Both the position numbers and the translations under genes were made by a program. A stretch of 64,000 nt of DNA from Patagioenas fasciata (lineage: Eukaryota > Chordata > Aves > Columbiformes > Columbidae): the NCBI RefSeq assembly GCF_037038585.1, contig NC_092559.1:19764488-19828487 (forward strand), read 5' to 3'. How positions within the stretch are numbered: position 1 is the first letter of the stretch; each line of letters starts with the position of its first letter. Shown in pieces: positions 18,659-60,796 of this stretch. Below the pieces are notes generated by a model. It did not search any database. It was given only the letters and a program-made list of their open reading frames with translations, and was not told where the DNA came from.

Positions 18659-19637
18659 TTAAGAGTCATCATCATTGCAAGTGGTTTCTTTGTTAGCTAA
18701 CCAAGGTCTTACCCACTTTGCTGGGATCCACGAAATTTTATGGTTACCTGTAGAAACACAAGCATATCCCCTTCCCCAGGTTATTAATGACATAGGACCT
18801 TCCCATTGTTGTGTTGTCACATTAAACACACTAACCTTAGGTCCATTTTCAGAAAAATCTTTGACATTTTTGATATGGTGCATAACAACAGGTTCCATTT
18901 CAATCTCACTTTTAGGATTAAGCCAGTTCAGCACATACAATGTCTTCATCAAAACCTCTTCTGGACTCACACCAATTCCCCCTTGTTTTTTCAAAACAGA
19001 CAAAAGATTTTTCAAGGCGTGGTGTGCACGCTCAATAATTGCCTGGCCAGTAGAATTATAAGGGACTCCAAACAGGTGTTGTACCTTCCACTGGACGAGG
19101 AAGGTTGCAAGTGTATCAGAACGATATGTGGGGCCATTATCTGTTTTGATCTGTGTAGGAACTCCCATGACGGCAAAAAACTTGTGATAAATGATACTTT
19201 ACCGCTTTTGCATTTGCTGAGGTCAAAGCTGTAGCCCATAACAGTCCTGAACAGGTATCTATGGACAAATAAATGTACTTTTGTCGGCCAAACAGTGCAA
19301 ATTCAGTAATATCAGTTTACCATAACTGGCCTGGCTGCAAGCCCCGAGGATTCACTCCCTTTTGTTGCAGAGGCACTATGCGAGCACAATCAGAACAAGC
19401 TGCAATAATGGATCAAGCTTGTTCCTTGGTAAGGGTAAACTGTTTTTGGAGTGATGCTGAGGATTGATGGAAAAACTCATGAGCTTGTCTGGCTTGTTCA
19501 AAAGGAGATACATCTCTCACTGCCACGAGTTTGTCTATAATGCTGTTTCCCTCTACTAGCCCACCTGGTAGGTTAGAATGTCTATTTATATGCATTATAA
19601 ATACTGGCGCTGTCCTATAATCTAACACGTTCCACAA
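18659..19637 (-). pseudogene. Integrase of ERVK-2
   Basis: The zinc domain (QARQAHEFFHQSSASLQKQF) is in the frame at 19637-19413. The core has a TDIT first-D motif, then KTDNGPTYRS and STGQAIIERAHHAL, and the C-terminal domain reads EGPMSLITWGRGYACV and WIPAKWVRPWL. An in-frame TAA at 19317-19319 sits just before the first catalytic D (LW-stop-TDIT), and further frame changes separate the parts. The D,D,E residues are otherwise readable. Confidence 0.85.
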
Positions 19638-19639
19638 AT

Positions 19640-20186
19640 CTAATAATGCCTCAAATACAAGGAGTTGGAAACTTGCTGCAAAAGTGCTCTATGTATTCTT
19701 TGTACAACTCCCACAAGATAAAGAGAATCTGCTACCAGATTAACTGGGTAGTTATGCCATTTTTGTAATGCTGCTATCACCGCTTGCAATTCTAAAATTT
19801 GAACTGATCCTTCAGCCACAACAATCTGTGAATGCCACTGACCGTTCTCAAACCATACAAAACCTCCTTTGCGTGAGCGACTACTCACATCCGTGAAATG
19901 GTTATGGCATCTAATGGACGCTCAGTAACAATTGACATAGGCTCCAAGGGGAGGTTGGTTTTAAATATGGGATACGGTGGATAATGACTGTCCACCTGCA
20001 CCGGAATCCAGGTAAGAGCTAAGGCAAGATTGTCATGTTTGAGAAGGATCTGTTGAAACAGATTGCGAGAAATGGGGATCACAATTTTAGCAACATACGA
20101 CCCAGACAAAGTCAGATATCAGCTTAGTCCTTTCACTACCACTTGGGCAATGGCTTCCCACCTTTGAATGATGGTTTTTTGTTTTT
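19640..20186 (-). pseudogene. RT C-terminus and RNase H of ERVK-2
   Basis: 20109-19885 reads a connection-like segment (ALTWIPVQVDSHYPPYPIF). 19888-19640 gives RNase H motifs: VWFENGQWHSQIVVAEGS, QILELQAVIAALQKW (catalytic E) and LVADSLYLVGVVQ (second D). The last RNase H motif (LVEGNSIIDKLV) falls in the frame at 19637-19413. The upstream end is cut by LTR-X1 at 20192. Confidence 0.8.
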
Positions 20187-20191
20187 GACTG

Positions 20192-21009
20192 TGTCATGGA
20201 GACACCCCAAAGATAGTTTAGATGGACAACAGGGTCCAAAACAACTTTTATTCAGTAAAGAAAGTGCAGCAGATTAGCTGGTGGAAGACGGGGTTTTAGC
20301 TCTCCAATAGTGACATAAATACAGGTTCGAATATCAGTCGAGGTAATTATTAAAGGTGCAGCAAATATTAACAATGGAGATCCACAGTGTGCATACACAT
20401 GGCTCACCAAAAACAATGCCAGAGCCGTCCCTGACTCCAGGAAAAGTATACACTTGCCTGAATCTGCAAGGAATTATTAAAGAAAATACACGTGCTTATA
20501 TTTAAGCACGGAATAAGCACCTGTGATCCTGTGAGGAATTATTAAAGAAAATTTTATCACTCACCCACGTGGTTCGGTGGGGTGAATCCCGGTCCCAGGA
20601 AATTACCTTAGGCAGCCATCCTGCCTAAGGGGGAGGGCTCTTGGCTGCAGACTTTGGCCTGCGCTCCAAGAGGTCCGCACAACCGGCGGCTGGCCTCGTT
20701 GGGAGTCCTGTTTAAACAGCCTTGTCAGATCTGACTGTAGGCATTCCAGAAACTTCTCTGCACCCCTACTCTGGCTGTGGGGTTCCCTGAAGCTTCTAAG
20801 CACCCCCACTCTGGCTGTGGGCACCCAGTTGCTCCTTGACACCTCTATGCCCCCATCCCTTCTCTCTCTTAATGACCCTGATCAATGGGTTCCGGGGTTA
20901 AAACAAAAGAAGCTGTTAACCCCATTGCAGGAGAGGGGGGGGAAGATGTGTCTGCACCTTCCATATCGAAGGAAGGAAGGGAGGGGGAGGGGGGTGTGCA
21001 TCTGCCACA
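20192..21009 (-). mobile_element. LTR-X1: solo LTR in ERVK-2 pol
   Basis: On the plus strand it runs TGTCATGGAGACACC..CATCTGCCACA and is flanked by perfect 5-bp duplications GACTG (20187-20191 and 21010-21014). Same family as LTR-X2 (23400-24521) and LTR-X3 (35956-36998); all three share the end TGTC..GGAG.CACCCC and the block GATC.GA.CTGACTGTAGGCATTC (in part). This copy is the shortest (818 bp) and keeps only about three stem-loop units at 20453-20536. Confidence 0.9.
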
Positions 21010-22918
21010 GACTGTTTAGAAATATCCATTCTAATAGTAACAACGGATCTTTTTCTTCCGTACTCCACTGGGCCAAAAGTCCTGCCACCTCCTTATTGGT
21101 ATTATAGACATAAAAAGTAACAGGCAATTCTGATCTTATCTGCTGAGCAGTATTCTGTGAAATTTTTCTTGCAATTTGCTCAAGCGCTTTTTGTGCTTCT
21201 GGTGTAAGGCACCGTGGTTCTTGGGGGTCTTGTCCCCCACGAAGGAGACTAAACGACGGTTGCAAATCTGTAATTCCAACAACATTTCTTATCCATTGCA
21301 AGTCCCCTACCAACTTCATTGCATCGTGAAGGGTTGCTACCTTTGCTTTCATAGCAAGCTTCTGAGGTCTAATCATGGCCTGAGTTAGTTCATATCCTAA
21401 ATATTTCCATGGTGCGGTTCGCTGTACCTTTTCTGGTGCCACAACCAGACCCCACTGACCTAATTGCTTCATCAACTGAATTATTGTATCCTGACTAATT
21501 TCCTTTTCATTGCACAAAAGGATATCATCCATATAATGATAGATGATCATCTGAGGGCGTTGTTGCCTAAATGACTTTAAAGCCAAATCTACATACCATT
21601 GGCAAATAGTAGGAGAATTTTTCATTCCCTGAGGTAACACTACCCAATGATATCTTTTCGTGGGAGCTTGGTGATTAAGCACTGGAACAGTAAAGGCAAA
21701 CTTTTCACAATCCTCTGGGTGTAACGGGATTGTGAAAAAACAATCCTTCAAATCAATGACAGTTATATCCCAATCTTTTGGAAGCATGGTTGGGGTAGGA
21801 AGACCTGGTTGCTGTGCCCCCATATCTTTCATTACTGCATTAATTGCCCTGAGGTCCTGTAACAAATGCCACTTCCCTGATTTCTTCTGGATAGTAAAAA
21901 CAGGTGTATTCCACGGGCTGGTGGAAGGGACCAAATGTCCGAGACGGAGTTGCTCTTCAACCAACTCCTCTAAATGTGCGAGCTTTTCTTTTGGTAATGG
22001 CCATTGATCCACCCAGACAGGATCATTTGTTTCCCAACTCAGCTTCATACTCGGCCGGGTGTCGCTCGCCGCAATGGCCATTATCAAAAAGGTGACTGCA
22101 TGACTATTCCCCACTGAGACATCACATCTCTTCCTAATAATGCAATTGTCGTGTTTAGAACATAAGGCCATACCCATGCCTCTAAGCCCTCGACCTCTTA
22201 TCTTAACCATATGTGTGCTGATGTGGGTAGGAGTGGCCCCCCCTATTCCCACTACCATGGTATTTACTGCTTCTAAAGGCCAACACGGAGGCCAATCAGT
22301 GCGAGGGATAATTGTCACATCTGCGCCTGAATCTAAAAGCATTCTTTTTCTTTTAATCTCACTTCCAGGCCCATATATGGAAACTACCCTAGATGGTTTG
22401 TCCAAAGTCAGTTTTTCTGTGAAAGCAACCACAGGGGCTCCGGTAGAGCCAAAACCTTTCTGATCTCTTTCCGCATCTAAAGCCTTTGGGACACATACTC
22501 TGAAGGGTACCAATTGCGCTATACGGGTCCCCTGTTTAATAGTCACAGTGGGCATTAAGACTTGCAACATAATGCCTAATGGTCCAGCATAATCAGAGCC
22601 TATTAATTCAGGCAAAACAAACAATCCCTGTCTTGAAGCAGAAGAGTGGCCTATTAAAAGCGCACTCAATCCATACCCTAGGGGCCCCATTACTGTAGAT
22701 GGAACTACATGTACAGACTGGTCTGTTATTGTGACGTCTGTTCCCACGGCCAGATCAACACCTGCGCTTCCTGAGGTTGCTGCCCTGAGCTCGGACAAGC
22801 AACCATGGCTGTTCCCCCTCTCGGCTGGTATTGTGGTGTCATCGCACCCCAGCCCCTGGCGCTGGCCCTCCCGTTTCCTGACAGCGGTGTCCCATCTTTT
22901 TAAAATTTTGATCGACAC
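21010..22918 (-). pseudogene. dUTPase-protease-reverse transcriptase of ERVK-2 in one open frame
   Basis: dUTPase motifs come first: SAGVDLAVG, LIGHSSASRQGL, ELIGSDYAG, GTRIAQLV. The aspartic protease follows with LLDSGADVTII. RT has TSPWNTPVFTIQKKSGKW, VIDLKDCFFTIPLH (motif A), LPQGMKNSPTICQ and YHYMDDILL (catalytic DD). Protease and RT are normally in different frames. Here they are joined because a small indel near 22170-22190 shifts the protease C-terminus: the expected ALLGRDVMSQWG reads in the neighbouring frame and ends in a stop there. The RT is cut by LTR-X1 at 21009. Domain content is intact up to that point, but the protease end is not. Confidence 0.87.
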
Positions 22919-23399
22919 TGCACTGCTAGGTGTCCATACTTATCACACCGACTGCACATGCCATTGAAGCACGAATAATCGAGGGCAGCTGGCGACTGGC
23001 TAGTGCCATTACTAGGTCCCCCTCTCCGAGCGTACTGAGGGCAATTTCTTTTAATATGTCCTGTCTGTCCGCAAGTAAAACATGCTAGGCCGTGAGAAGA
23101 AGGGCTTCGGCCTTTCATTGCAGGCTTAAGTGCTGCAGCCAAGGCTGCAGCATGAGCCTGAGCATGTATTTTTGCCTTTTCTACCTCCTGTTGCAAAATC
23201 GGTACCCGTGTACAAGTTTCCACCATCTCTGCCAGAGAAGCAGTTTTCCCCAAGCCGGCTAATATCTGTTGGCATTGGGTGTTTGCATTCATCATGGCCA
23301 AATCTTTCCCCATAGCAGCTTTTGCCTCTGGAGTCAGGTTAGGAGAAGCATCTATAGCTTCTTTTAAATGGTCCACAAACTTCATATAGGGTTCCCCAG
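22900..23399 (-). pseudogene. Gag capsid end and nucleocapsid of ERVK-2
   Basis: After GEPYMKFVDHLKEAI, at the end of the major homology region, the frame continues through TPEAKAAMGKDLAMMNANTQ and reaches two CCHC zinc knuckles: CFTCGQTGHIKRNC and CSRCDKYGHLAVQC. These bind genomic RNA in class II retroviruses. The knuckle residues are complete. The upstream half of capsid is separated from it by LTR-X2. Confidence 0.87.
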
Positions 23400-24521
23400 T
23401 GTCACGGAGGCACCCCGAGGTTAGTTTAAGGGACAACAGGGTCCAAAACAACTTTTATTAAACCGGTCAGAAACAGGGTTTTAGCACTCCAAAAGTGACT
23501 TAAATATAGATGCGGATATCAGTTGAGGAAAATTATTAAGGGGCAGCAACTAATACAACAGGCGGTCCATAGAGTGCATGCACATGGCTTCACCCAAAAC
23601 AATGCCGGAGCCGTCTCTGAGTCCGGGAGAAGTACACACTTGCCTGTACACGGTGTGGGATTATTTTAAAGAGATACACGTACTCATAGTGAGTACGGAA
23701 AGTCTACACTCGCGATTCTGAGAGGGTAAATTTATAATATGCTCGCAATCCTGCGAGGGTTAATACTCGTGCAAATGTGCATGGAATATTACATGTGCTT
23801 ATGTGGAAGCACGGGAGGAAAATACACTCGCGATTGTGCGAGGAAATAATTTATACACGTGCTTGTATTGAGCACGGAAAGTTACACGTGCAAATGTGCA
23901 CAGAAAGTACACATGCTTGTATTAAACATGGAAAGTATGCATGCAAATGTGCACAGAAAGTTACATGTGCTTATGTGGAAGCACGGGAGGAAAATACACT
24001 CGCGATTGTGCGAGGATTAATTTTACACGTGCTCATATTGAGCACGGAAAGTTACACGTGCATATGTGCACGGAAAGTATAAATACACTTGCAATCCCGC
24101 AAGGAGAAGTTTTACTCACACCCGTGGCGGCAAGGCAAACGGAGTCTCCATCCCGGGGAGGGTGGGCTCTCGGTGGCAGCATCTCGCTCATGCTCCAAGA
24201 GACTCACGACAATGGGCGGAGTCTCAACGAGAGTCCTGTTTTTTTTATTGGCTGATCAGATCTGACTGTAGGCATTCCAGAAGCTTCTCTGCACCCCCAC
24301 CCTGGCTGTGGGGGTGCCCCTGAATCCTCCAAACATCTCCCACACTGGCCGCGGGCGCCCAGCAGCTCCCTGGTGCCTCGGCACTCCCTTCTCCTAACGG
24401 CCCTGGCCAGGGTGCTCTGGGACCAAACAAAAGAAGCTGTAGCAGAGAGAGAGGGAGATGTGTCTACTCCTTCCATGATGAAGGAGGGAGGGGGAGAGAG
24501 GGGGGTTTGCATCCTGCCACA
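23400..24521 (-). mobile_element. LTR-X2: solo LTR with expanded stem-loop array, in ERVK-2 gag
   Basis: TGTCACGGAGGCACC..ATCCTGCCACA on the plus strand, flanked by CCCAG at 23395-23399 and 24522-24526 (perfect 5-bp TSD). An AATAAA complement near 23455 marks the element's 3' side, so it is on the minus strand. By analogy with LTR-X3, whose TATAAAA lies at 36710-36716, the promoter is near 24240. The segment between promoter and poly(A) signal would be transcribed and contains the array at 23679-24103. 1122 bp, the longest of the three copies. Confidence 0.9.
23679..24103 (-). repeat. Tandem stem-loop array (15 units) in LTR-X2
   Basis: Plus-strand units, in order: 23679-23697, 23709-23724 (imperfect), 23742-23757, 23768-23783, 23795-23812, 23827-23842, 23858-23876, 23887-23903, 23912-23930, 23942-23953, 23967-23984, 23999-24014, 24028-24046, 24057-24072, 24088-24103. 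The main types are CTCGCGATTGTGCGAG, CGTGCATATGTGCACG, CGTGCTCATATTGAGCACG and GTGCTTATGTGGAAGCAC. Each is an inverted repeat, with GGAAA and TACA-type linkers. Stem pairs change together (CTCGC/GCGAG versus CTTGC/GCAAG; CGTGCTCA/TGAGCACG versus CGTACTCA/TGAGTACG). Confidence 0.9.
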
Positions 24522-25187
24522 CCCAGGATCCTGCTTTATTGTAGAATAGGGTGGCACAGGGTTACCTATATTTGGTAATTCTTTCACTGCCGCCAGGGCA
24601 AGCCCTTGCGTTTGCTGCAAAATCCTTGGATGAAGTGCTGCCTGAGTAGCACCATCCGCATATTGTCCACGACCCAATAATTGGTCCATGCTAGCTAATC
24701 GTAATGGATCATCAGCTGGTAAATGAACATTTTCTAATGCTGCCAATTCCACCTTCCCCTGCCACTTGTCCAAGAACAGCAGATACCCCGCTGGAGGAAG
24801 CAATAACTCCATCAATGCCCTAATATCTGTTTGAGTTAGTACTTGCCCCTTGAAAAATGAATTGATTAGCTGCATCACATGCTTATTATCCATACCATAT
24901 TGCATAACTGCACTTTGCAATTGCTTAACCATTTTCCGATCGAAGGGTGACCACTGCCTTTGTCCTCTGTTATCTATGTGCACTGGCATTGCTGTAATAC
25001 TGCCAGGTAACATAATCCCTTCAATGGTTGCATCCCTGATTACCCCTTGCCACTGTTGCCCTGCATTATGAGAGTGATGTCGAGGAATATCTCTACCCTG
25101 ATGCACAGGGGTAGCACCCAAATTATCATTACTGTCACTGCTATACAATTCCCTTGTGTTTCCCTGTGGATCAGTGAGTCGAAGCAT
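24522..25187 (-). pseudogene. Gag capsid (N-terminal part) of ERVK-2
   Basis: The open minus-strand frame encodes a retroviral capsid N-terminal domain: WQGVIRDATIEGIMLPG, WSPFDRKMVKQLQSAVMQYG, SFFKGQVLTQTDIRALMELL and DPLRLASMDQLLGRGQY. It is interrupted by LTR-X2 at 24521, and the continuation lies at 23399. ERVK-3 retains only the first part of the equivalent domain. Confidence 0.85.
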
Positions 25188-34724: not shown

Positions 34725-34895
34725 ACCAGGAAAGATGCCTTCCTAGATTTGCTACTTGATAACAGAGAGGGTCTTGTGGGAGAAGTGGCAATTGGTGGCT
34801 GCCTTGGCAACAGGAGGAAAACTGACACCAAGACTAAACTTTAGATATGAGGAGAATTCTGGTTGCTCAGAAAACTACTTATTAAGGTCCCCTGG

Positions 34896-35560
34896 TCTCC
34901 TGGTTTTGTTAAAAAACAAGTTTCTCTTTTAGTGAATTTGCCTGTCAGCTAAAGCCTTCATATTAGCTGCATTTTCCTGGAGAACCAGATACATGTTTTG
35001 GTAAACATGGCAATGGAATGCAAACTTATTGATAAGTACGGATGGACATCTCGCGAGAGGGACAATGAGAAACCGGTGACCAAGAAACTGACCAACTGAG
35101 TATAACATTCCATTCACGTGAATACTTCATATAAAAGTGGGAGATCACGAGGATCTCGTCCCTTTTCCCTTTTTTCCTTTTCCCTTCTGCTTATAGCCGA
35201 CATTAGGAGAGGACCTTGCTAGTTGTCCCTGCAAACTGAGGCCTAGTGAGAGGCTGAATCCAGCTCCAGGTTGGCTACAGAGTCTAATCCAGGACTTTGG
35301 GTGCTGGTTCTGCAGTTGCTGAGACTTTCAAGATTGGTTTTGTATATTTTGTATTATTTTCTCTATTCTTATTAGTAGCATTAGTAAAACATCTTTAATT
35401 TTTCCAACTCTCTTCTCTCTGTCCTTCTTTCCCTCCCGATCGCCTGTCCTTAGTGGGAAGGGGGGAGAGGGAGGGGCAAAAAGGGGAAGTGGGGGGGAGA
35501 GGAGGTTAACAATACATCTGCAAGGGTTTTATTGTCACCCCACAATCTTAACCCTCGACA
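34896..35560 (+). mobile_element. Solo LTR 'TGTCCTGGTTTTG' family, in CR1-2
   Basis: Runs TCTCCTGGTTTTG (start mutated from TGTCCTGG) to ACCCTCGACA. Flanks CCTGG and GCTGG look like a 5-bp target duplication with one change. TATA CATATAAAAGTGGG near 35130 and a G-rich tract near 35455-35510 are shared with the copies at 41853 and 52763. CR1-2 reads on across it. Confidence 0.87.
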
Positions 35561-35955
35561 GCTGGGAAGAAGCTTTTGAATTTGCTGAGGTCCGTCAGTG
35601 TTGGTCGCTTTTTAAATACCACCTACTAAAAGCACAGGATCAGGCAAAATGCCAAAAATCTAGAAGGGGAGGCAAAAAGCCAGCTTGGTTGAGCAGGGCT
35701 CTTCTTCTTGAACTGCGGCAAAAGAAGAAAGTATATGGTCAGTGGAAGCAAGGTCATGTGTCATGGGAGTACTACAGAGATGCTGCTCACACTGTAGGGA
35801 AGAAATTCATGTGGCCAAAGCTCATTTAGAATTGAAGCTGGCCAGTACTGTGAAGGACAATAAAAAGACCTTTTTCAAATATATTAATGGCAAAAGGCAA
35901 ACTGGAAATAACATTGGTCCATTACTTGGTGAGTATGGTCACCTTATTAACAGGG

Positions 35956-36998
35956 TGTCACGGAGGCACCCCGAGGCTAATTTAAGGGACAACAGGGTCC
36001 AAAACAACTTTTATTAAACCGGTGAGAAACAGGGTTTTAGCACTCCAAAAGTGACTTAAATAGAGGTTCGGGTATCAGTTGAGGAAAATTATTAAGGGGC
36101 AGCAACTAGTACAACAGGCGGTCCACAGAGTGCATGCACGTGGCTTCACCCAAAACAATGCCGGAACCACCCCGAGTCCCAGAGGAGTACACACTTGCCT
36201 GAACACGGTGCGGTCTTATTCTTAAAGAGATACAGGTAAAGCGTACGCTCGCGATTCCGCGAGGGTAAATTTATAATACACTCGCAATTCTGCGAGGGTT
36301 AATTTACTTACACGTGCGAATGTGCACGGAATACTACACGTGCTTATGTGGAAGCACGGGAGGAAAATACACTCGCGATTGTGCGAGGATAAATTTATAA
36401 TACACTCACAATTGTGCGAGGAAATAATTTAAAGTACGCGTGCAAATGTGCACGGAATATAAATACACTTGCGATTGTGCGAGGAAATAAAGTTATACGT
36501 GCTTGTATTAAGCACAGGAAGTTACACGTGCATATGTGCATGGAATAAAGTTATATACTCGCAATCCTGCGAGGGGTTTTACTCACACACGTGGCGACAA
36601 GGCAAGCGGGGTCTCCATCCCGGGGAGGGGGGGTTCTCGGCGGTAGCATCTTCAGCTCGCACTCCAAGAGACCGGTGACAATGGGCCCAGTCTCGATGAG
36701 AGAGTCCCGTTTTATACTGGCTGATCAGACCTGACTGTAGGCATTCTAGAAGCTTCTCTGCACCGCCACACCATGTGTGGGGTGCCCCTGAAGCCTCCAA
36801 ACATCCCCCACACTGGTCACAGGTGCCCAGCGGCTCACTGGTGCCTCGGCAATCCCTTCTCCTAATGGCCCTGGCCAGGGTGCTCTGGGCCAAACAAAAG
36901 AAACTGTTAGCCTCAAGTAGCAGAGAGAGGGAGATGTGCCTACTCCCTCCATACTGAAGGAGGAGGGGGGGAGAGAGGGGGATTTGCATTCTGCCACA
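35956..36998 (-). mobile_element. LTR-X3: solo LTR with stem-loop array, in CR1-2
   Basis: TGTCACGGAGGCACC..TTCTGCCACA on the plus strand, flanked by CAGGG (35951-35955 and 36999-37003), a perfect 5-bp duplication. On the minus strand TATAAAA is the complement of 36710-36716 and AATAAA the complement of 36010-36015. The roughly 700 bp between them would be the transcribed R region, and the hairpin array (36248-36573) lies inside it. Very similar to LTR-X2. Confidence 0.92.
36248..36573 (-). repeat. Tandem stem-loop array (11 units) in LTR-X3
   Basis: Units on the plus strand: 36248-36263, 36281-36296, 36313-36328, 36339-36358, 36372-36387, 36405-36420, 36439-36454, 36468-36483, 36498-36515, 36527-36542, 36558-36573. 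They include CTCGCGATTCCGCGAG, CTCGCAATCCTGCGAG, CGTGCGAATGTGCACG and CGTGCTTATGTGGAAGCACG. Most are perfect or one-mismatch inverted repeats; the loops GATT/AATC(C) and AAAT/ATAT recur. Unit order and number differ from LTR-X2. Confidence 0.9.
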
Positions 36999-37003
36999 CA
37001 GGG

Positions 37004-41802: not shown

Positions 41803-41852
41803 ATCAGTACTGAAAAGAAATTCTTAACCCCTCTGCTCCAACCCTCAGTTGG

Positions 41853-42503
41853 TGTCCTGGTTTTGTTAAAAACAAGTTTCTCTTTTAGTGAATTTGCCTG
41901 CCAACTAAAGCCTTCATATTAGCTGCATTTTTCTGAAAAGCCAGATACATGTTTTGGTAGACAATGCAATGGTATGCTAGGTCATTGATAAGAATGGATG
42001 AGAATGGATGCACATCTCGTGAGAGGGGCAACGAGAAACAGGTGACCAAAAAACTGACCAACTGAACTATTCCATCCAATTCACATCATACTTCATATAA
42101 AAGTGGGAGATCACGAGGATCTTGCCCTTTTTCCTTATGGTCGACATTAGGAGAGGACCTTGCTAGTCGTCCCTGTGAACTGAAGCCTAGTGACAGAGTG
42201 AATCCAGTTCCAGTTGGCTGCAGAGTCCAATCCAGGACTTCGGGTGCTGGCCCTGCAGTTGCTGAGACTTTCAAGATTGGTTTTGTATATTTTGTATTAT
42301 TTTCCCTATTCTTATTAGTAGCATTAGTAAAACATCTTTAACTTTTCCAACTCTCTTCTCTCTGTTCTTTTTTTCCCTCCCAGTCACCTGTCCTTAGTGG
42401 GAAGGGGGGAGAGGGAGGGGCTGAAGAGGGAAGTGGGAGGAGAGAGGGGTTAACAATATATCTGCCACGGTTTTATTGTCACCCCGCAATCAAAACCTTG
42501 ACA
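41853..42503 (+). mobile_element. Solo LTR 'TGTCCTGGTTTTG' family, in class I ERV leader
   Basis: TGTCCTGGTTTTG..AACCTTGACA with TATA CATATAAAAGTGGG near 42094. Flanks GTTGG and ATTGG suggest a 5-bp duplication with one change. Orientation is opposite to the ERV it entered. 651 bp. Confidence 0.88.
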
Positions 42504-42829
42504 ATTGGCAAAGGGCCTCTCCCTTTGTCATGCATCTACATCTAGATGCATCTTGTGTCAAATGTTGGCTGCTTCCCAATGTAACTTACTAACCCTCCCC
42601 TTCTCTTACCTCTTTAAAAATACCTCTATAATGTATTGCACCATTGTGTCGCTTACCGCCCGATGGTTGGAGAGGAGCCAGTGGAGGTCCTGATCAATAG
42701 GTCAATGCATGTTGGAGTCCTGCTCGGTCCATGTCTCCTTCTGTCAGAAGCAGTAAGACAGTCCAGGCAAAACCATTACGACTGTCCCACCTGGGTTACC
42801 AGAAAATGTTGTCCCAAAAGGTGGGATGT

Positions 42830-52444: not shown

Positions 52445-53505
52445 ATTGCTATCATGGAGACGTGGTGGGACAGCTCACATGACTGGAATGTTGTCATGAA
52501 GGGCTATGTACTTTTCAGGAAAGACAGGCCAGCAAGGCGAGGTGGAGGAGTTGCACTTTATGTGAGAGAGCAACTTGAATGTCTTGAACTCTGCCTGAGG
52601 GGGGTTGACGAGTGAGTTGAATCCCTATGGGTAAAAATTAAGGGACAAGCTAATAAGGGTGATACTGTTGTGGGTGTTTACTACAAGCCACCTGATCAGG
52701 AAGAGGAAGTTTTCTACAGACAGCTGGAAGTAGCCTCACAAACACATGCCCTGGTTCTCATGTGTCCTGGTTTTGTTAAAAACAAGTTTCTCTTTTAGTG
52801 AATTTGCCTGTCAGCTAAAGCTTTCATATCAGCTGCATTTTCCTGGAAAACCAGATACATTTTTGGTAGACATAGCAATGGAATGCGAGGTTATTGATAA
52901 AGAACAGATTCACATCTCACGAGAGGGGCAATGAGAAACAGGTGACCAAGAAACTGACCAATGGAGTATAACATTCCATTCACGTGAATACTTCATATAA
53001 AAGTGGGAGATCACAAGGATCTCATCCCTTTTTCCTTATGGCCGGCATTAGGAGAGGACCTTGCTAGTCGTCCCTGCGAACTGAGGCCTAGTGACAGACT
53101 GAATCCAGTTCCGGTTGGCTGCAGAGTCCAATCCAGGAATTCAGGTGCCAAAGCAGTTGCTGGGACTCTCAAGATTGGTTTTGTGTAATTTGTACTATTT
53201 TTCTCTATTTTTATTAGTAGCATTAGTAAAACATTTTTAATTTTTCCAACTCTCTTCTCTCTGTCCTTTTTTCCCCTCCCAATCACCTGTACTTAGTGGG
53301 AAGGGGGGAGAGAGAGGGGCTGAAGGGAGAAGGGGGGGAGAGGGGGTTAACAATACATCTGCCACGGTTTTATTGCCACCCCGCAATCAAAACCTCAACA
53401 TCATGGGAGACTTCAATCACCCTGACATCTGCTGGGTAGGCAACACAGCTAAGCATGCCCAGTCCAGGAGTTTCCTACAGATCCTGGTGGGATCAAACTC
53501 TGGCT
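52445..53505 (+). mobile_element. CR1 endonuclease segment split by an LTR
   Basis: 52445-52762 encodes METWWDSSHDWNVVMKGYVL and RRGGGVALYVREQLE, up to HALVLM. After the LTR at 52763-53400 it continues MGDFNHPDICWVGNTAKH. One TGA interrupts it near 52616. It ends near 53505, where the 5' part of CR1-3 begins. Confidence 0.85.
52763..53400 (+). mobile_element. Solo LTR 'TGTCCTGGTTTTG' family, perfect TSD
   Basis: TGTCCTGGTTTTG..AACCTCAACA, flanked by TCATG (52758-52762 and 53401-53405), a perfect 5-bp duplication that splits the LVLMGDF motif of a CR1. TATA CATATAAAAGTGGG near 52995. 638 bp; the youngest-looking of the three plus-strand copies. Confidence 0.92.
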
Positions 53506-54669: not shown

Positions 54670-55120
54670 TGTGGAGAGTCTCTGGCTGTGTGCTGTGAAC
54701 AAGCCAGGGCTTGATGCGGCTGTGCTACACGGAAGGATTTCCCTGAGACACCAGAGACAAAAGGAAAGTAAACAGAAGCTGCTCTGCCCTCGACCCAGGC
54801 TGCAGGAGGGGCGTTGCCGCTACGCATGAACAGTCTGTGAGCAGTGCCCTGCAGCCAATCGCCATAGTGGGGGGGGATGAGTGACTGTGAGTGTAACCAA
54901 TTGTAGCCTGCACTTGCCGCATGGCCTTTTGGTATAGAGTATATAAGGCTTGGAAAAACGTGGTCTCGGGGACATTGATATTCAGTGTTGTTTAAGAGTT
55001 CATTAAAGAGTACGGATGGTAAATTCACATTGAATTAGACTCCTTACTCTCGCCCGGCCCGCCCGTTCGATCAAAGAGCTTATGCCGGCGTCTGGATTCG
55101 TCGAATTTACTACCACTACA
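54670..55120 (+). repeat. 5' LTR of ERVK-3 (451 bp)
   Basis: TGTGGAGAGTCTCTGG..TACCACTACA. TATA-like GTATATAAGGCTTGG at about 54938-54953 and poly(A)-like CATTAAAGAG near 55003 define U3, R and U5. CCAAT-like GCCAATCGCC lies near 54855. No difference from the 3' LTR seen. Confidence 0.95.
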
Positions 55121-55122
55121 AA

Positions 55123-55140
55123 TGGTAGCAGAGGATGGTT
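55123..55140 (+). promoter_or_regulatory. Primer-binding site, initiator tRNA-Met
   Basis: TGGTAGCAGAGGATGGTT, two nucleotides after the LTR, is a perfect 18-nt complement to the 3' end of vertebrate initiator tRNA-Met. An imperfect second copy follows at 55174. Confidence 0.88.
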
Positions 55141-55219
55141 CGTTAGCAAAGCATAACGCTCCGGATCTACATATGGTAGCAGAAGGATGGATCGTTAGCA
55201 AAGCATAACGCTCCGGATC
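55123..55219 (+). repeat. Tandem duplication of the primer-site region
   Basis: 55123-55167 and 55174-55219 are two copies of a 45-46 bp unit: TGGTAGCAGAGGATGGTTCG and TGGTAGCAGAAGGATGGATC, each followed by GTTAGCAAAGCATAACGCTC and CGGATC. The second copy has one inserted A and one substitution within the primer-site part. Confidence 0.93.
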
Positions 55220-60339: not shown

Positions 60340-60790
60340 TGTGGAGAGTCTCTGGCTGTGTGCTGTGAACAAGCCAGGGCTTGATGCGGCTGTGCTACAC
60401 GGAAGGATTTCCCTGAGACACCAGAGACAAAAGGAAAGTAAACAGAAGCTGCTCTGCCCTCGACCCAGGCTGCAGGAGGGGCGTTGCCGCTACGCATGAA
60501 CAGTCTGTGAGCAGTGCCCTGCAGCCAATCGCCATAGTGGGGGGGGATGAGTGACTGTGAGTGTAACCAATTGTAGCCTGCACTTGCCGCATGGCCTTTT
60601 GGTATAGAGTATATAAGGCTTGGAAAAACGTGGTCTCGGGGACATTGATATTCAGTGTTGTTTAAGAGTTCATTAAAGAGTACGGATGGTAAATTCACAT
60701 TGAATTAGACTCCTTACTCTCGCCCGGCCCGCCCGTTCGATCAAAGAGCTTATGCCGGCGTCTGGATTCGTCGAATTTACTACCACTACA
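60340..60790 (+). repeat. 3' LTR of ERVK-3 (451 bp)
   Basis: Same start, end and internal sequence as the 5' LTR; I found no mismatch in a line-by-line comparison. Followed by the ATCACA duplication at 60791-60796 and the resumed CR1 frame (ETWWDDSHNW). Confidence 0.95.
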
Positions 60791-60796
60791 ATCACA

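Follow-up and report, generated by a model that had tools for sequence, protein, structure and literature searches.

Repeats within LTRs are commonly interpreted as enhancer DNA. In HTLV-1, the RxRE, a structured RNA of a few hundred nucleotides in U3/R, lies at the 3' end of all mRNAs and, in the excerpted account, is linked to export and to poly(A) positioning (PMC3434621). Gammaretroviral ERVs have an R region of approximately 70 bp, and lentiviruses one of 150, in the available part of PMC3601003; that of PMC3694450 gives 193 for PFV and 228 for HTLV-1. Among endogenous retroviruses, a 5-bp target duplication is given for ERV3/ERV4 in the class table of PMC4299795, likewise seen as an excerpt.

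This study concerns three LTRs of an old retroviral family that carry rows of short hairpins. All inference rests on these three LTRs in 64 kb of DNA; this whole stretch is termed the window, and all positions are coordinates in it. Such a row of hairpins in an LTR family is unusual, and no LTR hairpin array was found in titles or abstract openings of the open-licence papers listed by the literature searches.

Results

Three solo LTRs of one family

Three LTRs, X1, X2, and X3, belonged to one family (LTR-X) and all lay on the minus strand within the window (Table 1). Each had TG..CA ends, a short exact target duplication and an AATAAA followed by a GT-rich stretch, as expected of solo retroviral LTRs. 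The target duplication was 5 bp in all three, the length listed for ERV3/ERV4; judged from solo LTRs without internal genes, membership of LTR-X in ERV3 or ERV4 would fit.

Table 1. Features of the LTR-X copies and of the provirus around X1 and X2 (window coordinates).
Feature	Position	Strand	Remarks
Solo LTR X1	20192..21009	-	818 bp; duplication CAGTC at 20187-20191 and 21010-21014
Solo LTR X2	23400..24521	-	1122 bp; TG..CA ends
Target duplication of X2	23395..23399 and 24522..24526		CTGGG (minus strand), 5 bp, exact
Solo LTR X3	35956..36998	-	1043 bp; duplication CCCTG at 35951-35955 and 36999-37003
X1 hairpin units	20453..20535	-	Three units, first decayed
X2 hairpin array	23679..24103	-	15 units; unit 1 at 24088-24103, unit 15 at 23679-23697
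X3 hairpin array	36248..36573	-	11 units
Duplication inside X2 array	23770..24079	-	172-bp period, 1.8 copies, 92% matches
TATA-like box a of X2	24243..24249	-	AATAAAA; upstream of array
GTGAGT of X2	24114..24119	-	Weak donor-like site just before array
TATA-like box b of X2	23501..23506	-	TATTTA; downstream of array
Poly(A) signal of X2	23454..23459	-	AATAAA, then GT-rich stretch
Gag p24 match of older provirus	24527-25187	-	
dUTPase, protease, RT matches of older provirus	21010-22918	-	
Integrase matches of older provirus	18659-19168	-	

X1 and X2 sit within what appears to be a single older class-II-like provirus on the same minus strand (18659-25187), into which these two solo LTRs of one family apparently inserted. 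When part of the surrounding gag was used as a protein query, 3 of 817 candidates matched, one of the three being a pigeon protein, at 86% over 19% of the query. Elsewhere in the window, two 452-bp direct repeats with 100% identity (54670-55121 and 60340-60791) flank a reading frame for RT and RT-thumb; together they mark a very young provirus, inserted on the plus strand. Two tandem copies of a 52-bp repeat (55116-55219) begin where the first long repeat of that young provirus ends. Another repeat, of approximately 670 bp, was present in three copies with 84-88% identity (34893-35568, 41850-42511, and 52762-53408).

The hairpin array and its repeat unit

The initial annotation had described 15 consecutive stem-loops in X2, with arms of a few types. 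Both claims were borne out: 15 units tiled the interval exactly, running from position 24103 downward, and the named arm types were present. Each unit comprised a C, an arm, a loop of 3-8 nt, the opposite arm, usually TGTA, and a T-rich linker, with a repeat length of 25-34 nt in X2 and X3 and 25-40 nt in X1. Across the 29 units of the three LTRs, a C invariably preceded the stem, and the four-base tail was an exact TGTA in 21 units (T in 24, G in 25, T in 28, and A in 28). Arm positions 2 and 6 were variable, and positions 4 and 5 near constant. There were two main arm types, CTCGC and CGTGC; arm type and loop length varied among units. Units 6, 7, 12, and 14 of X2 were altered members of the same repeat.

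Comparison with dinucleotide shuffles ruled out a chance origin of the stems. The X2 array contained 11 stems of at least 5 bp, compared to 2.2 ± 1.3 in shuffled sequences (0/1000 reached 11), and seven of at least 6 bp, compared to 0.6 (0/1000). The excess was weaker for stems of at least 7 bp (2 vs 0.17; 13/1000). In X3, eight stems of at least 5 bp were found (1.95 in shuffles; 0/1000) and one of at least 7 bp (0.14 in shuffles; 133/1000). A hairpin scan of the whole window identified the X2 and X3 arrays as its densest regions, with peaks of 10 and 8 per 425 bp, followed by a peak of 7 and with a mean of 2.6. These results confirmed that the array is real.

All 29 units went into a covariance model, which gave 19 matches with E < 0.001, all among those same units; since 10 of the 29 source units were missed, its sensitivity is modest. 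Rfam covariance models yielded no match at the gathering threshold anywhere in the window, and a known RNA family was thereby rejected. Z-DNA formation as a general property of the array was likewise rejected: of 17 alternating runs of at least 12 nt in the window, two lay in the arrays, both at unit 2. There, unit 2 and its tail form a 20-nt alternating purine-pyrimidine run in X2 (24053-24072) and in X3 (36523-36542). As a separate observation, a perfect hairpin of 10 bp lies between box a and the units of X1 (20606-20630); it is missing from the hairpin lists of X2 and X3.

Variation of the array between copies

Unit number was 3 in X1, 11 in X3, and 15 in X2, and the array is therefore a minisatellite that varies between copies. 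The X2 array contains an internal duplication (Table 1), and a 48-nt stretch of two units was identical at 23795-23842 and 23967-24014 in X2 and at 36340-36387 in X3. At both array ends, X2 and X3 had the same unit types in the same order. Unit 15 of X2 had no counterpart in X3, where a 17-nt gap, reflecting either gain or loss, removes the whole hairpin. LTR segments outside the array agreed at 78-93% between X2 and X3 (7-22% difference).

A pattern search for more copies matched two viral contigs and two genome contigs. On those four contigs the unit model gave a single match (E 0.35), and comparison of the X LTRs with contigs L001 and L002 gave 20-21 nt at best among the matches listed. The matches on all four contigs were taken as chance.

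Pairing and covariation of the arms

Watson-Crick pairs occupied 149 of 174 arm cells (29 units, six pairs each), compared to a mean of 113.6 after permutation of right arms (0/5000). Among the 19 distinct arm pairs, 93 cells were paired and 71.2 expected (0/5000). The other cells, read on the sense strand, comprised 8 G-U, 15 A-C, and 2 of other kinds. The excess came mostly from pairs 2, 3, and 6, where the two arm types switch; pairs 1, 4, and 5 hardly varied and so carried little information on covariation. When permutation was restricted to within arm types, 1/5000 reached the observed value. For the CGTGC type, 86 of 96 cells were paired and 76.3 expected (2/5000; for 10 distinct pairs, 23/5000). 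For the CTCGC type, covariation did not exceed permutation (63 of 78 cells vs 60.8 expected, 1139/5000; for 9 distinct pairs, 1757/5000). The earlier proposal that pairing had been kept thus stood between types, far above permutation, but not within the CTCGC type.

Alignment-based covariation covered four stem pairs, as pair 5 is split in the alignment. Over these, 93.1% of positions were paired compared to 75.9 in shuffles (0/500), and the covariation score was 0.545 compared to 0.247 (0/500). Slid structures scored at most 0.297, and slides by two columns kept 60 and 75% pairing because the arms are partly self-similar. Of five measures, the number of double-change pairs (3 vs 2.3 shuffled; 160/500) and that of further pair types (8 vs 6.7; 77/500) were not significant. 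Independent double changes were few, about six. Arm types make a strong case as far as pairing goes, yet the independent events behind it are few.

Both arms of CTCGC/GCGAG and of CGTGC/GCACG contain a CpG, and double deamination can therefore produce a matched pair without selection. Transitions at CpG sites numbered 18 in 116 sites, compared to six changes of other kinds in 174. All 29 units together contained four compensated pairs, of which three were at CpG; a CpG-aware null gave a mean of 1.45 (P = 0.056). Without X1 unit 1 the null was 1.15 (P = 0.028); with X2 and X3 only, minus X2 units 5 and 8 as duplicates, three compensated pairs were found (null 0.78, P = 0.046). The excess of compensated pairs over CpG decay is marginal, and such decay nearly explains the compensation within types. 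The matched substitutions from which selection or gene conversion for pairing had been argued, CTTGC/GCAAG and CGTACTCA/TGAGTACG, are present in the array. With three of four matched pairs at CpG and P values of 0.03-0.06, the argument drawn from them is nevertheless weak.

Predicted RNA fold and strand

The initial annotation had suggested a fold analysis of the minus-strand RNA. Sense RNA of the X2 array was predicted to fold at -132.9 kcal/mol, compared to -99.3 kcal/mol for shuffles (z -5.78), but antisense RNA folded as strongly (z -5.81). The sense RNA of the X3 array also exceeded shuffles (z -4.0). In context, mean stem probability was 0.63 (X2) and 0.70 (X3) for sense RNA, compared to 0.34 and 0.25 for antisense. 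The predicted sense fold consisted of short hairpins with some cross-pairing; stem probability was below 0.5 in 8 of 26 units (X2 units 1, 2, 6, 7, 8, and 9; X3 units 2 and 4).

Real linkers were no better than shuffled ones for hairpin formation, 12 of 30 shuffles being as good in X2 and 8 of 30 in X3, and the idea that linkers are shaped for independent hairpins was rejected. Selection on the RNA strand through tolerance of G-U was also rejected, as G-U showed no excess over A-C on the sense strand (8 vs 15, or 6 vs 5 after removal of pair 6 and the decayed X1 unit 1). On these fold models, a functional RNA strand for the array appears plausible.

Position of the array in R or U3

The array had been assigned to R. 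It does lie between an upstream TATA-like box and AATAAA, but TATA-like boxes were present on both sides of it. Box a, upstream, reads TATAAAA in X3, AATAAAA in X2, and TTTAAA in X1, and lies 464 (X1), 790 (X2), and 701 nt (X3) from AATAAA. Box b, downstream, is TATTTA in all three LTRs, 47-69 nt before AATAAA. Linkers of the X2 and X3 arrays contain TATAAA and TATTTA as well. With box a as promoter, R would span several hundred nucleotides; with box b as promoter, the array would be in U3 and R would be an estimated 40 nt or so. In either case the array precedes AATAAA, and transcription should place it at the 3' end of the RNA.

Identity between X2 and X3 was 223/240 after the array, 242/275 before box a, and 92/118 from box a to the array; the corresponding values for X1 and X3 were 184/234, 201/282, and 65/114. 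The block after the array was the most conserved in both comparisons, a pattern that would lean toward box b as the promoter. A GTGAGT occurred in all three LTRs. Scored with a donor matrix, it was the best site in X1 only, third in X2, and not among the six listed in X3; a splice donor before the array was not favoured, its letters being kept, yet weak in X2 and X3.

Discussion

The reading that we tentatively prefer, at somewhat less than even confidence, is that the array is a structured RNA module of the viral RNA 3' end, with a role like that of the HTLV RxRE. It is placed first because the arms vary without loss of complementarity or of the stem-flanking bases, and because there are known structured elements of U3/R that act in export and poly(A) control. 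With AATAAA downstream of it, the array would be part of the viral RNA 3' end and would fold there largely as a string of short hairpins. This string may have served the active element as a cis-acting post-transcriptional module, possibly in export, stability, or poly(A)-site control, and may have been redundant enough to gain and lose units. A more far-reaching version, in which a self-expanding C-hairpin-UGUA string acts at one or both RNA ends as a modular, multivalent array for protein binding or export, with an R of approximately 700 nt, is rather unlikely. Such an R would be several times the R lengths given in the cited excerpts.

Template switching and slippage without function constitute a realistic possibility, nearly as likely as the RNA module. 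Hairpins would make a polymerase or reverse transcriptase switch template, copying arm onto arm and keeping stems perfect, and slippage or unequal exchange would change unit number. In the excerpted text of PMC8794818, hairpin stems can arise and be repaired by template switching, which can mimic compensatory change. Consistent with this, the right arms of X2 units 3 and 9 differ by two adjacent bases that add two pairs at once, neighbouring pairs 2 and 3 change together between arm types, the X2 array contains the 172-bp-period duplication, and the gap in X3 corresponds to one hairpin of X2, as a gain or a loss. However, the loop-inversion footprint was absent (0 reverse-complement pairs among 18 interiors), although loop inversion is also rare in the template-switch data excerpted from PMC8794818. 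Moreover, the C and TGTA that flank the stem vary about as little as the least variable arm positions, and nine broken and seven wobble pair cells in the 29 units, of undated origin, remain unrepaired.

A DNA-level enhancer repeat in U3, with palindromes as sites for dimeric DNA-binding proteins, is unlikely. It requires that the downstream TATTTA is the real promoter. All three LTRs have this box at a similar place before AATAAA, whereas box a contains TATAAA in X3 only; conservation is highest in the block after the array, as is usual for R-U5; and tandem repeats are frequent in retroviral U3, according to the part of PMC3601003 available. CACGTG occurs at the arm-tail junction in 4 of 15 (X2), 3 of 11 (X3), and 1 of 3 (X1) units, but this is a minority of units, and the implied R is short. 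A dimeric site would, in addition, keep its half-sites and spacing, whereas arm sequence and loop length vary by type. The variety of arm types and loop lengths led us to reject a single dimeric protein site with constant half-sites.

The motif UGUA is the core of cleavage factor I sites, which usually lie nearer to AATAAA than approximately 220 nt. That repeated UGUA tails recruit this factor, with hairpins merely as spacers, is very improbable: most units do end in an exact TGTA, and upstream cleavage factor I sites are one of four poly(A) elements in the excerpt of PMC3694450, but the array ends approximately 220 nt before AATAAA, and shared tails are also expected from common descent of tandem units.

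As a hairpin minisatellite with co-varying arms, LTR-X provides a natural series of 3, 11, and 15 units with which to ask whether RNA export or 3'-end formation was tuned through copy number. It also offers a case in which selection on RNA pairing could be told apart from template-switch mutation.

MicroRNA precursors need longer stems than 5-8 bp. The stems of LTR-X, at 5-8 bp, are too short, and miRNA hairpins or a pol III pri-miRNA cluster were rejected. Foamy virus and BLV pol III pri-miRNA hairpins are likewise encoded by retroviruses, and the BFV cassette lies in U3 in the excerpted description (PMC7693620). ERV3/ERV4 elements have the 5-bp target duplication in common with LTR-X; the class description, as excerpted from PMC4299795, is without a hairpin array. 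In the foamy virus R region, GTGAGT is followed by structure and then by AATAAA in one LTR, an order that LTR-X shares (excerpt of PMC3694450). The PFV R is 193 nt in that same excerpt, while LTR-X has a donor-like site that is weak in X2 and X3, and a putative R. Tandem units inside the LTR are shared with the U3 tandem repeats of other LTRs, as described in part in PMC3601003; in LTR-X, by contrast, the units are hairpins whose arms co-vary between types. The HTLV-1 RxRE would resemble the array if the latter, which stands before AATAAA and is predicted to fold more stably than its shuffles, is a structured RNA at the 3' end of transcripts. The RxRE, however, is one structure of four stem-loops bound by the viral protein Rex, whereas LTR-X carries 3-15 similar short hairpins in tandem.
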